From Shewanella glacialimarina (lineage in GTDB: Bacteria; Pseudomonadota; Gammaproteobacteria; Enterobacterales; Shewanellaceae), in contig NZ_CP041216.1 of the NCBI RefSeq assembly GCF_020511155.1, forward strand, positions 372,001 to 436,000: a stretch of DNA of 64,000 nt, read 5' to 3'. Below, one piece after another: positions 2,570-60,161 of the stretch. Below the pieces are notes generated by a model that saw only the letters and a list, made by a program, of their open reading frames with translations, did no database searches and was not told the origin of the DNA. A program made the position numbers and the translations under genes. The stretch's first letter is position 1. Each line of letters begins with the position of its first letter.

Positions 2570-3267
2570 ACTAAATCAGCATTAGGATCCGGTTCTCGCA
2601 TCCTTTGCCACCAGGTTGCATTGGCCTCTATTTGTCCTTGCTGATCAATTTTCGGATAAGGGATATTTTTACGTCGACAGGCTTTTGCATAAACTGGGTG
2701 GCCTTGCTCGAACAACATTTTCTGACAATAAGCCTCATCTAAATGACGAGTGCCATACATGCCTGCTTGTTCACGTTGGCGTTGTGCTTCATACATGATC
2801 AATGCAGAAGCGACCGATACATTGAGCGATTGCACCATACCAAGCATAGGGATAATGATATGTTGGTTAGCAATCGCTAGCCCTTCATCACTGACACCGT
2901 CACGCTCGTTGCCCATGATGATCACCGTTGGTTTGGTGTAGTCTATTTCGCGAAAGTCGACGGCGGTGTCAGAAAAGTTGGTAGCCAGCACTTGCATGCC
3001 CTGAGCAGTAAACTGAGAAGCCGCTTGGCTCATGTTGTCATACACTATGGTTTTTACCCATTGCTGACTCCCAGAGGCTGTATTGCCTGATACTCGCATT
3101 TGAACGTCAGGCCATACAGCATGAACTTGATGTATACCCACGGCATCTGCGGTGCGAATAACCGCAGCAATGTTTTGGGTTTTATGGACAGTATCTAAAC
3201 ATAAAGTGAGATCAACCTGGCGGTTATCTAGCATTTGATTAATACGGGCGAAACGTTCAGGGCTCAT
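2563..3267 (-). CDS. trmH: tRNA (guanosine-18-2'-O)-methyltransferase TrmH
   Basis: Methylates the 2'-OH of G18 in the tRNA D-loop using S-adenosylmethionine. The 234-residue protein has the SPOUT (trefoil-knot) fold signatures: N-x-x-A-x-x-R-x-A-[DE] near the N-terminus (KTQNIAAVIRTADAVG), the middle motif GNERDGVSDEGL, and the knot motif MLGMVQSLNVSVASALIMYE. Length matches the TrmH family. It lies 96 nt downstream of ridA on the same strand, consistent with the spoT-ridA-trmH order I associate with relatives. The last codons and stop lie inside a repeat element, but the protein appears full length. Paralogous SPOUT rRNA methylases are the alternative; the context supports TrmH. Confidence 0.93.
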   Translation of the reverse strand: MSPERFARINQMLDNRQVDLTLCLDTVHKTQNIAAVIRTADAVGIHQVHAVWPDVQMRVSGNTASGSQQWVKTIVYDNMSQAASQFTAQGMQVLATNFSDTAVDFREIDYTKPTVIIMGNERDGVSDEGLAIANQHIIIPMLGMVQSLNVSVASALIMYEAQRQREQAGMYGTRHLDEAYCQKMLFEQGHPVYAKACRRKNIPYPKIDQQGQIEANATWWQRMREPDPNADLVI

Positions 3268-3363
3268 AATAAATATTCGGTAAAATTTTAGCTAACAACA
3301 AGTAAACAAAAGGGCGCATAAGCGCCCTCTATACTGAGTAATATTGGACGTTAATGACAGAGC

Positions 3364-3747
3364 TTATAGCTCCATAATGCCGTCCATTTCAACCAATGAG
3401 CCTTTTGGTAGCTCTTTTACCCCAATAGCAGCACGTGCTGGGTAAGGCTGTTGGAAGTAGCGACTCATAATGTCATTCACTGTGGCAAAGTGTGACAAGT
3501 CAGTTAAGAAGATATTTAACTTCACTATGTCTGACATTTTTCCGCCAGCAGCGTCACACACCGCGGTTAAGTTTTCAAATACTTGCACAACCTGTGCAGA
3601 AAACTCATCGCTTACCATGGTCATGGTTTTAGGGTCTAACGGAATTTGACCAGATAGATAAACAGTAGTGCCGACCTTTACAGCCTGAGAATAAGTGCCA
3701 ATCGCCTGCGGTGCTTTGTCAGTAGCAATGATAATTTTTTCAGCCAT
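3364..3747 (-). CDS. ridA: RidA/YjgF-family 2-iminobutanoate/2-iminopropanoate deaminase
   Basis: Hydrolyses reactive enamine/imine intermediates released by PLP-dependent enzymes such as threonine dehydratase, protecting other PLP enzymes. The 127-residue protein is the usual length. It carries the family signatures [19 protein letters not shown] near the N-terminus and [21 protein letters not shown] at the C-terminus, with the catalytic Arg of the PARAAIGV motif and the conserved Glu near the end. The trimeric cytosolic fold is known for the family. It is separated from spoT, its expected upstream neighbour, by the plus-strand cassette at 4021-6892. It therefore probably has its own promoter in the AT-rich gap at 3748-4020. 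Confidence 0.95.
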
Positions 3748-51602: not shown

Positions 51603-54446
51603 CTAGTTATTATTTATGTTTAGGTCTTGAGGCGTACCCCTAAAACACCCTACGTTATAAGGGAAATCATATGTCCAGTGGTAGTGGAACATATTACGAG
51701 TTTCACCATCCCATTCTATTTCATGGGTATGACCATGGCATTCATCCAGATCTGCTGATGTTAACACCTTTCCATCTTCTCCTCTTGGACCAAAAATACC
51801 AAAGCCATCTTGGATATATCCCATCAGTTTAGAGTGTCCGCCATTATCTGGATCTAGCTTTGCTGATACATTTTCAGCAAGATAGTGGTAGTGGTATGTT
51901 TCAGTGCCGTCAGTATGCCCACCACTGCTGTCTAGCATTTCATAGGCAGAGGCATCGGTGCCAACAGTTGAAGCGCCTTGATAAATAGCAGAGCCAGTAA
52001 GTGAAATGCCATTGGCCCCAAACCCAACACAGTTAGGCTGGGCATTGACGCTTGGAATAGCATCAAAGCTTATTTGGATATTGTGTGATCGAATCAAATT
52101 TGGGTTTTTATCATATCCATAGGCGACAGTGCCACGCTCAATGGGGAAGGTGCCGGTCGCTGTTGTTGGCAGGTTGTTTCCGGTGATGAGGCGCTTTCCT
52201 TGGCCATCAAGCGTCACGCTGAACTCACTGGCAAAATAACTTTCACCCTCAACTTGGGGTTTAAGAATATAGTTCCAGGTACCATCTGCATTGGTCCAGT
52301 CGTCGGAAGGCGCTGCTCCAGCACCATCTGCAGGAAGCCGACAAAGCCAGAGTTTACCGACTTCAGGCGTATCATCGCCATTTATCCGCTGCAGAATAAG
52401 CGGGTCACCAATGGGAAGGTGGGTTAAGTCGGCATTCACCTTGCTGTCGTTACAAGTGACGCTAACATCGGCGATATTGGAGCTCATGGTGCCGGACCCA
52501 TTATTAATGTTACAGGTGTGATTATCGGGTAGGGTAATTAACTGGATATTATACGCAGCGCTTTCGCTCACGGTTTCTGTGAATGTAAATCTTGTTGCAC
52601 CAGCAGAAATTGCTAAGGTTTCATTACCATTAAAAAGACTCAAGCCATCGGCGTGAAGCCCTGAAATTTCGCCCGCTAATATCAATTCACTGGCCGAATC
52701 CTTGTTTAAAGATAACAACTCTTCCCAGCCAACGCGTTCAGCGCGGTAGATCTTGTTATTGTTAACATGTAATTCCCAAACAACTTGCGATGGATTAGCG
52801 GCGGTCACTTCAACCAAATAAGCATTGTCATTACTGCCTGGTCCTCCAGCCGTGATCAGAATATTACCATTGGGCAGTTCATCAACATCCCCTAAAGATT
52901 GAGTATACTTATCAACAATATGCTCCCAAACTTGGGTTGCTGTCTTGGTATCAGCATTAACTCGATACTTAACGGCACGGCTGTTATTCTGCGAACCCGC
53001 TAACTCAGCTTCGTTACGATTATCAAACATCAGATAGTCTCCGTTGGCGGTTTGCATCGGCGCGTGTTGCGCTGACATCCAACTGCCTTGTTCTAGACTG
53101 ATAAATTTGTCCTGTAACGACTGTTTTTGGGTACCTTCAGCGCTGCCAAGGATCCAGTTAATATCGCCACTCTGGTGATTAATATTGACGACCCAGCTTT
53201 GAGATCGAACGGAGAGTAACAGCGAACCATCGTCTTGCTGCTGTATTGCATTGGCATGTGTCCACTCCATTGCACCATCAACGACACGTGTCGATAATGC
53301 TCCGGGGAAACGTTCGGTATCGAGATGGTCGAAGCTCGACCATTGCCATACTAAGGTTCCTGAAGGGTTATATTCCTCGATACGATCACCTTTTAGTGAG
53401 TTGCCATTAACATCTTCAAATTCGTTAACCAACACCACAATATTGCCATTATCTAAAATGCTTGCTTCGTGATGGTAGGTAGGGAGTGGGTAAGAGGATA
53501 AAATATTACCTTCTATGTCTATTACCCACACTTCGCGCCTCAGCATTAACATTATTTTGCCATCGCCAAGGTATTTGATGGCAGGAGAACTCGCTAACAT
53601 AGGAACATCAGTGTTGTGTAAATACCAAACAACTTGACCTGCTTCATCTACGCCAATAAAACGGGCATCTGTATCAGCCACCGAAAAAAAGGTAACGCCT
53701 GGATAGCTATTATCACTGCTAGTTTTTAATTGAATATCAGGCAAGCTAAAGGGGAGGCTGGGCGTGGTGTAAGCTTTTGGTTCGCTGCTTGTTACTTCGC
53801 CGGATTGACTGGTGATCACGGCGGTGAATTGGTAGTTGGTTTCTGGCCTTAACCCAACCACGGTTAAATCATGGGTTAGTGCAGCTGCAGACTTTGAGGT
53901 TGCTCGGCTTGGTGTATCTACCGACTCAAATTGAATGGACACCTCAGTGACTTCACTTGTAGTCACATTTGCATTAACCATTAGCACATTGCTGTCGTGA
54001 GCACTGAGACTAAAGTCAAAATCAACAGTAGTTCCATCACTATTAGCCTTCGTAGCAGTGATTGTCACCACATCGGCAGGGCTATTAACCTTGCCATCAT
54101 TCACAACCAGTGAAATATTATAGCTACCATCAAGATCGCTAGTGAAACTTGGACTCACGCTACTGGGACTACTCAATGTTGCGCCGCTACCGCTTGGTAT
54201 ACCCGTTAGCATCCATTGGTAAGTCAGTGAGTCGTTATCAGGATCTGAACTACGGTTTCCATTGAGGGAGACAAGGCTACCCGTAGTGATATTTAGGTTG
54301 TCGCCAGCGTCTGCGATAGGCGCACTATTTGTGATCCCCGTATCAGTGCCAGGATCATTAGCAGTTTCAGCGCCTCCTCCGCAACCAGATAGTAAACTCA
54401 AACTAGTAACTAAAATGGGTACTAATATTCGATGATTAACTTTCAT
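51603..54446 (-). CDS. Lipoprotein with PKD-like, arylsulfotransferase-like propeller and C-terminal YHYH domains
   Basis: 947 residues from ATG 54446, preceded by AAGGAG at 6 nt; an earlier in-frame start would add 16 residues before the signal peptide. Order: signal peptide and lipobox LLSGC, Ser/Thr/Asp-rich linker, PKD/cadherin-like Ig domain about 35-130 (PIADAGDNLNITTGSLVSLNG, SSDPDNDSLTYQWML), a FN3-like domain about 135-225, an arylsulfotransferase-like propeller about 230-600 (VVWYLHNTD, HHEASILDNGNIVVLVNEF, EWTHANAIQQQDDGSLLLSVR, INWILGS, SAQHAPMQTANGDYLMFDN, PNGNILITAGG), then a YHYH domain (TDGTETYHYHYLAEN, DECHGHTHEIEW, NMFHYHWTYDFPYNVGCFRG). Catalytic His for sulfotransfer cannot be confirmed. 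Its role is unknown; a surface enzyme or metal-binding lipoprotein is plausible. Confidence 0.8.
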   Translation of the reverse strand: MKVNHRILVPILVTSLSLLSGCGGGAETANDPGTDTGITNSAPIADAGDNLNITTGSLVSLNGNRSSDPDNDSLTYQWMLTGIPSGSGATLSSPSSVSPSFTSDLDGSYNISLVVNDGKVNSPADVVTITATKANSDGTTVDFDFSLSAHDSNVLMVNANVTTSEVTEVSIQFESVDTPSRATSKSAAALTHDLTVVGLRPETNYQFTAVITSQSGEVTSSEPKAYTTPSLPFSLPDIQLKTSSDNSYPGVTFFSVADTDARFIGVDEAGQVVWYLHNTDVPMLASSPAIKYLGDGKIMLMLRREVWVIDIEGNILSSYPLPTYHHEASILDNGNIVVLVNEFEDVNGNSLKGDRIEEYNPSGTLVWQWSSFDHLDTERFPGALSTRVVDGAMEWTHANAIQQQDDGSLLLSVRSQSWVVNINHQSGDINWILGSAEGTQKQSLQDKFISLEQGSWMSAQHAPMQTANGDYLMFDNRNEAELAGSQNNSRAVKYRVNADTKTATQVWEHIVDKYTQSLGDVDELPNGNILITAGGPGSNDNAYLVEVTAANPSQVVWELHVNNNKIYRAERVGWEELLSLNKDSASELILAGEISGLHADGLSLFNGNETLAISAGATRFTFTETVSESAAYNIQLITLPDNHTCNINNGSGTMSSNIADVSVTCNDSKVNADLTHLPIGDPLILQRINGDDTPEVGKLWLCRLPADGAGAAPSDDWTNADGTWNYILKPQVEGESYFASEFSVTLDGQGKRLITGNNLPTTATGTFPIERGTVAYGYDKNPNLIRSHNIQISFDAIPSVNAQPNCVGFGANGISLTGSAIYQGASTVGTDASAYEMLDSSGGHTDGTETYHYHYLAENVSAKLDPDNGGHSKLMGYIQDGFGIFGPRGEDGKVLTSADLDECHGHTHEIEWDGETRNMFHYHWTYDFPYNVGCFRGTPQDLNINNN

Positions 54447-54851
54447 TTGACACTCCTTTTTTATCATTAGTACATAGTTCACCTCGTTCTGCATTTACCT
54501 TTACTCAGCTTTATTTATCTTTACTCACCTTTACTCCTTTAAGATGCCTAAATAATGATGAACTCAGCGATTGCGATAATGACCCGAGTGATGTCTGAAT
54601 TTAGTGGGGTCAGTGTAAAAGATAAGTTAACCCATTATCTTTTATCTTGTTTGGTATAGCTTTTTCCTGCAGCTATCAATGAAGCTAAATCGTGTATTAG
54701 TCTTAGGGTCAGTATTAGTCGGGTCAGGGTAAACATTTATCGCAGATGATTGTAGTGCCATTCTGCTTCTGGTTATTTCCGCAGGTTGCGGTGTTATCTT
54801 TAACTCATTCATTGAATTATAGCTGTACATAAAATTGGTAAAGAAACAAAC
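54447..54851. other. Intergenic region with repeated GGGTCAG motifs
   Basis: No gene supported. The motif GGGTCAG occurs three times within about 125 bases near 54608, 54709 and 54722 (GGGTCAGTGTAAA, GGGTCAGTATTAG, GGGTCAGGGTAAA), and CTTTACTC-like T-rich repeats occur at 54500-54540. These look like debris of a repeat or transposase-associated element. Confidence 0.4.

Positions 54852-59399: not shown

Positions 59400-60161
<762 letters not shown>

Follow-up and report, generated by a model that had tools for sequence, protein, structure and literature searches.

Arylsulfotransferases (ASSTs) are best known in connection with phenols, with sugars named too (accessible text of PMC13426309). 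The same text lists the active-site residues of the Escherichia coli enzyme AssT as His252, His356, Asn358, Arg374, Thr501 and His436, the last of which is transiently sulfated. The YHYH domain has been described from a different direction. The accessible part of PMC7824862 places it in tail proteins, predicts that three of its His and one Asp form a zinc site, and proposes a metal-dependent hydrolase associated with the tail. Pelagimyophage YHYH domains have been grouped with carbohydrate-binding and host-recognition domains (PMC7029224, available portion), and the consulted part of one published paper puts the domain in diatoms. Here we describe a gene that joins the two families. It lies on the minus strand of a 64,000-nucleotide stretch of Shewanella glacialimarina DNA (contig NZ_CP041216.1, positions 372,001 to 436,000), which we call the window, and its product is a predicted lipoprotein in which an ASST is followed by a YHYH domain. 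Both families are known already; their fusion is new. In one clade of YHYH proteins, moreover, nearly every member is fused to, or encoded beside, an enzyme of sulfuryl esters.

An ASST and a YHYH domain in one predicted lipoprotein

The open reading frame (ORF) at 51603-54446 on the minus strand is intact, with its ATG at 54446 and a product of 947 aa, and the observed domain fusion is real. Pfam-A assigns PKD, ASST and YHYH domains with E-values that exclude chance; NCBIfam holds nothing above its family cut-offs for the 947-aa protein. The features are as follows.

51603..54446, minus strand: whole gene, predicted lipoprotein of 947 aa with PKD, ASST, Ig-like spacer and YHYH (ORF translation, Pfam-A)
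54453..54456, minus strand: GGAG, likely ribosome-binding site, six bases from the ATG at 54446 (sequence reading)
54381..54446, minus strand: predicted signal peptide and lipobox LSGC, residues 1-22, with Cys22 (translation read by eye)
54057..54308, minus strand: PKD domain, residues 47-130 (Pfam-A, K319L-like PKD, 5.6e-13)
53766..53984, minus strand: N-terminal Ig-like domain of the ASST (Arylsulfotran_N, PF17425), residues 155-227 (Pfam-A, 2.6e-7)
52743..53729, minus strand: Arylsulfotrans PF05935 (propeller) domain, residues 240-568 (Pfam-A, 8.2e-64, model 5-374 of 374)
53469..53471, minus strand: His326, equivalent to E. coli AssT His252 (alignment)
53250..53258, minus strand: His397 and Asn399, equivalent to AssT His356 and Asn358 (alignment)
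53205..53207, minus strand: Arg414, equivalent to AssT Arg374 (alignment)
53064..53066, minus strand: His461, equivalent to AssT His436, the transiently sulfated catalytic His (alignment)
52446..52700, minus strand: Ig-like spacer, about residues 583-667, with Cys645 and Cys665; bounds approximate (repeats elsewhere in the genome)
51606..52439, minus strand: YHYH domain, residues 670-947 (Pfam, tblastn, alignments, model)
51744..51932, minus strand: His/Asp set of YHYH, D839, H844, H852, H854, D880 and D901 (two alignments)

With PF05935 matched from end to end of its model and PF17425 present as well, the protein belongs to the ASST family by profile, and a profile of the window ASST and ten relatives (11 ASSTs) matches E. 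coli AssT (3ELQ) at 2.7e-46. Five of the six listed AssT active-site residues are kept (His326, His397, Asn399, Arg414 and His461), and the same five are retained in the only other fusion that we found, described below. An earlier reading of the letters alone, hereafter the sequence-only reading, had asked whether the propeller would lack catalytic residues altogether; by sequence they are there, and the ASST is likely active. Its six-bladed propeller fold would follow from homology to 3ELQ. The propeller stretch contains no Cys. This gene accounts for the genome's single match to each of the ASST and YHYH families.

The Pfam match to YHYH (PF14240, residues 835-889) scores 1e-10 and 42.3 bits (cut-off 25), and tblastn together with alignments extends the domain to about residues 670-947. 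Six residues, D839, H844, H852, H854, D880 and D901, are invariant in two alignments (105/105 and 15/15 rows), and conserved Tyr accompanies them. The 105 sequences were collected through two peptide patterns covering about 880 and 901-904, so that invariance near those positions is partly a matter of selection in that set; the wider 15 were collected otherwise. H904 is kept in 105/105 and 9/15 rows, and H921 in 105/105 and 12/15. H844, H852 and H854, with D839, D880 or D901, would correspond to the residues of the published predicted zinc site. The sequence-only reading had proposed that the YHYH and HGHTH clusters bind metal, and the invariant His/Asp set fits the predicted site. The HGHTH cluster (904-908) is conserved only partly: H906 stands in 87/105 and 6/15 rows, and H908 in 78/105 rows, while in the 15-row alignment it falls outside the four commonest letters.

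The AlphaFold2 model of YHYH is a confident one (mean pLDDT 94.5, pTM 0.92). It has no fold relative in the Protein Data Bank (PDB), where the best Foldseek E-value was 1.3 and none of 578 chains reached Z >=2; by sequence, too, no solved relative was found in the PDB. Such an absence does not prove a new fold. Viral proteins do match it, Cyanophage S-RIM14 in BFVD at E 2.4e-8. YHYH occurs in bacteria, in an archaeal metagenome-assembled genome and in viral contigs, and stand-alone proteins of about 300-400 aa with no partner domain exist. Most of the viral loci L163-L178 contain open frames of great length (the longest about 2,700 aa), the YHYH match lying in mid-frame; locus L026 carries tandem YHYH ORFs on the same strand (1423-2484 and 2854-3375); and a YHYH protein with a PEBP-like partner, L242, comes from the window's own genus.

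Around these two domains the sequence-only reading had the parts list largely right. Its FN3-like domain is actually the Ig-like domain that ASSTs carry at their N terminus (PF17425); since that domain is standard in ASSTs it is no extra module, and the fn3 Pfam profile itself scores under its cut-off. What the list overlooked was the Ig-like spacer at about 583-667, which has no Pfam match and resembles repeats in another ORF of this genome, 1296 aa long (L004/L007). The lipobox LSGC (residues 19-22) and the GGG that follows were recognised by eye; they make the protein a predicted lipoprotein that would sit in the cell envelope.

A rare fusion and a recurring partnership with sulfuryl-ester enzymes

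The fusion is rare. Queries with the entire protein or with its stretch from ASST to YHYH found it outside the window's genome in none of 118 relatives' genomes (E 1e-20), none of 369 genomes of its class (E 1e-10) and none of 398 genomes of its phylum (E 1e-8); the three samples share genomes, and the window's own is in all of them. The remaining matches covered only the PKD, ASST, spacer or YHYH portion. Scans of genome_contigs and viral_contigs with the single protein returned zero relatives, as did an ASST alignment against viral_contigs. A YHYH alignment run against genome contigs, from which the best 80 of at least 427 relatives were kept (the source of loci L052-L065 and of 66 others), yielded one further fusion, an ORF of Aliikangiella sp. 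G2MR2-5 (L052:3276-5834). It is the same ASST-spacer-YHYH lipoprotein, 69% identical overall and 81% in YHYH, and it differs in having no PKD. The sequence-only reading was right, then, that the combination is unusual, and the domain-combination search it had suggested finds the ASST-YHYH fusion in one other place; its counting of the PKD domain as part of the oddity is not supported, since that domain is absent there. Between the two fusions, nonsynonymous and synonymous differences per site (pN and pS) are 0.18 and 0.78 in the propeller and 0.10 and 0.70 in YHYH, figures of which the direction alone counts because synonymous sites are near saturation. As far as the aligned sequences tell, divergence is mostly synonymous in both domains.

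A broader pattern lies in the company that YHYH keeps. We built a YHYH tree of 105 domains, in which a single clade with an SH-aLRT of 100 unites the window protein, L052 and 13 Bacteroidota proteins (L053-L065). In 11 of these 13 Bacteroidota loci a sulfatase gene lies downstream on the same strand, and in ten of the 11 its candidate ATG falls 7-21 nt past the YHYH stop; at L053 a MauG-type gene stands between the two. At L059 an ASST gene (PF05935, 5.1e-28) takes the place of the sulfatase, with a candidate ATG 37 or 52 nt past the stop. Among 127 loci, only L052 and L059 have an ASST. All ten fully readable clade sulfatases contain a CTPTR motif; the eleventh contains masked bases. The nearest solved relative of the L054 partner is a kappa-carrageenan sulfatase, a kinship that gives a weak hint of glycans.

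A profile of the ten clade sulfatases, run over loci of varying length, found a single sulfatase among the 66 genome loci outside the clade (L117, 19 nt downstream, CSPTR) and none in 47 viral YHYH loci; being built from the clade's own enzymes, it could let other kinds of sulfatase escape. A sulfuryl partner in 12 of 13 loci against 1 of 66 gives a Fisher p of 3e-12, which overstates the case because the 13 share ancestry and were the top-scoring of the 80 loci kept. A survey of neighbours took 124 flanking ORFs around the 66 other loci (none for L077) and scanned 122 of them, each cut at 500 aa; the two omitted belong to L088, a near-copy of L080. Response regulators (6/122) and kinase domains were commonest; SCO1/SenC gave two matches, too few for use, and sulfatases at most one in 122, although the survey can miss genes, since its ORF picking overlooked the L117 sulfatase that the profile search saw.

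Fusions of sulfatase and YHYH turn up closer to home. Of 398 Pseudomonadota genomes searched with PF14240, 27 have YHYH, and that of the window is one of these. Two of 29 further loci, L211 and L212 (full-length L237 and L238), encode single lipoproteins with a sulfatase followed by YHYH, and at L209 (full-length L239) a PKD-YHYH lipoprotein gene is convergent with that of a sulfatase lipoprotein. We also searched in reverse, running a profile of 12 partner sulfatases with a threshold of E 1e-60 through 295 genomes from the window's order. Ten of these genomes gave 11 matches in all: seven carry a fused C-terminal YHYH and one is the convergent pair. That pair and two of the fusions are the profile's own rows; five of the eight independent matches are YHYH fusions. 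The fused ORFs of the order (L237, L238, L247-L250 and L253) belong to the same sulfatase subfamily as the Bacteroidota partners. The window genome itself has no match to the 12-sulfatase profile at 1e-5, an empty answer that alone shows little; it has three PF00884 matches and one FGE-sulfatase match. As an observation beside these, the 1466-aa predicted lipoprotein encoded at L254:3311-7708 unites a sulfatase with Lcl_C stretches and with a di-haem MauG/CCP domain. MauG (L053, L254) might point to copper or redox chemistry, a possibility that we considered and keep as a weak lead only.

On a 126-row YHYH tree, which leaves aside 23 viral rows and very short domain pieces, we counted how often the label 'sulfuryl partner' must change: five times at the least, four of them forced by strong branches. 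Shuffled labels average 22 changes, and none of 500 shuffles came down to five. Partnerless loci with flanks of about 1.5 kb were scored negative, and the 24 positive rows count one gene twice (L212, L244). Gains cannot be told from losses because the deep joins of the tree are weak.

As for the gene's surroundings, its GC content of 0.454 was compared with that of five flanking genes (0.454, 0.448, 0.449, 0.435 and 0.387), and no foreign composition was seen. Five congeners have the Ysc84 gene that neighbours the fusion gene here, in stretches of about 10 kb that lack the fusion gene itself. Elsewhere in the window, an ORF at 59400-60161 has a hydrophobic N terminus and then a long run of Glu-Pro dipeptides, and the overlapping ORF on the opposite strand is a Gly-Ser run.

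What the YHYH domain might do for its partner

We see about an even chance that the window protein is a lipid-anchored, two-part processor of sulfuryl esters, in which YHYH acts on or holds the substrate or product of its partner. Following the family mechanism, to which the conserved residues point, the ASST domain would work by a ping-pong reaction in which His461 receives the sulfuryl group of an aryl sulfate and then hands it to an acceptor. YHYH, on its Ig-like tether, would use a His3/Asp metal site on the same sulfated substrate or product, or hold it. In general terms, the ASST or sulfatase would move or remove the sulfuryl group and YHYH would act on the same molecule, at the cell envelope; a metal-dependent step on the partner's substrate is its most likely part. 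Because sulfatases pair with YHYH as neighbours or as fusions, the conserved unit is YHYH with a sulfuryl-ester enzyme and no single enzyme. The sequence-only reading had spoken of a paired enzymatic activity at the cell surface, and its interpretation is partly supported: the pairing of YHYH with a sulfatase or an ASST recurs elsewhere, and YHYH itself may be catalytic. More tentatively, and well short of an even chance, YHYH may be a metal-dependent enzyme of unsolved fold, some branches of which work on sulfated esters or glycans, with the sulfatase (AP superfamily) and the propeller sulfotransferase interchangeable in the unit.

Several observations weigh against the two-part processor. 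L057, inside the clade, has neither sulfatase nor ASST. By the ten-sulfatase profile, 65 of the 66 genome loci outside the clade have no sulfuryl enzyme, which led us to reject a universal partnership of YHYH with sulfatases, and 26 of the 29 Pseudomonadota loci have none within flanks of about 1.5 kb. Three of the eight independent sulfatase relatives are without YHYH: one is an Lcl_C and MauG fusion (13 kb checked), one was checked over 12 kb and one over a short locus. In two proteins (L240:3326-5509 and L242:4027-6696) YHYH is joined to a PEBP-like PF01161 domain instead. AssT Thr501 aligns to Leu518, as it does to Leu in the nearest ASSTs, in an uncertain register. Finally, the full-length model (16 rows) reaches a mean pLDDT of 43, and we do not use it as support.

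Other explanations share much of this evidence. YHYH might be a binding or targeting module, a lectin for glycan or substrate with a structural metal, that brings the sulfuryl enzyme to sulfated polymers. The company of carbohydrate-binding and host-recognition domains in pelagimyophages (PMC7029224, in part) speaks for it, as does the kappa-carrageenan kinship of the L054 sulfatase, and a module common to two unrelated enzymes behaves as binding modules do. Yet six invariant His/Asp residues with conserved Tyr exceed what is usual for a structural site, YHYH also stands alone with no partner domain, and a metal-dependent hydrolase has already been proposed in the accessible text of PMC7824862; we regard a pure binding role as a real but distinctly lesser possibility. 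That the fusion is incidental, lipoproteins shuffling domains freely so that ASST and YHYH share a tether and nothing else, would sit well with its presence in two genomes only (by the best 80 of at least 427 relatives and the genome samples), with a PKD domain in one and not the other, and with the further partners of YHYH. We think this unlikely, given that the pairing recurs in different parts of the YHYH tree, between adjacent genes as well as within single proteins, that the sulfuryl enzymes involved have two unrelated folds, and that change is mostly synonymous in both domains.

The least probable of these explanations, to which we give little credence, makes YHYH a helper in folding, metal delivery or maturation of its partner, with no role at the level of the substrate. 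Adjacent gene order and fusion would suit a helper, as would the MauG-type gene at L053 and the MauG domain fused to a related sulfatase in L254, but by the ten-sulfatase profile 65 of 66 YHYH genes outside the clade have no such partner. Sulfatases require formylglycine and calcium, and ASSTs require neither. It is therefore difficult to picture one helper role that would serve both.

How the fusion compares with known systems

YHYH is widespread, and our literature and PDB searches found neither a tested function nor a solved relative for it. A link to two unrelated folds of sulfuryl-ester enzyme offers a concrete class of substrate, and the compact natural fusions are objects on which it can be tested. 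If the ASST works, the window protein would also show an architecture new to these enzymes, which are of interest in the making of sulfate esters. A link between YHYH and a sulfatase or sulfotransferase was not found in the literature, in a search with most subscription papers and all preprints outside its scope, and appears unpublished.

The phage proteins (Cyanophage S-RIM14 and those of jumbo phages in PMC7824862) have the same domain by fold search. Their setting differs, being the virion according to the available text of PMC7824862, with no sulfuryl enzyme in the 47 viral loci. Nearer are the sulfatase-YHYH proteins L237, L238, L247-L250 and L253, which like the window protein carry a sulfuryl-ester enzyme N-terminal to YHYH; L237 and L238, whose N termini were read, have a lipobox as well. 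They differ in the enzyme, a PF00884 sulfatase with CSTTR or CTTTR where the motif lies within the locus, and they come from another YHYH branch. The Bacteroidota lipoproteins (L053-L065) share the window's clade, with YHYH domains 57-62% identical to its own. Theirs are separate genes, and the partner gene encodes a sulfatase at 11 of the 13 loci and an ASST at one; the remaining locus has no partner. On the enzyme side the closest system is E. coli AssT (PDB 3ELQ, 3ETS and 3ETT), which has the same PF05935 and PF17425 domains and five active-site equivalents in common with the window protein. AssT has Thr501 where the window protein has Leu, and two Cys shortly before the active His where the window propeller has none. 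What the window protein adds to the AssT plan is a predicted lipid anchor, a PKD domain, a spacer and, at its C terminus, YHYH.

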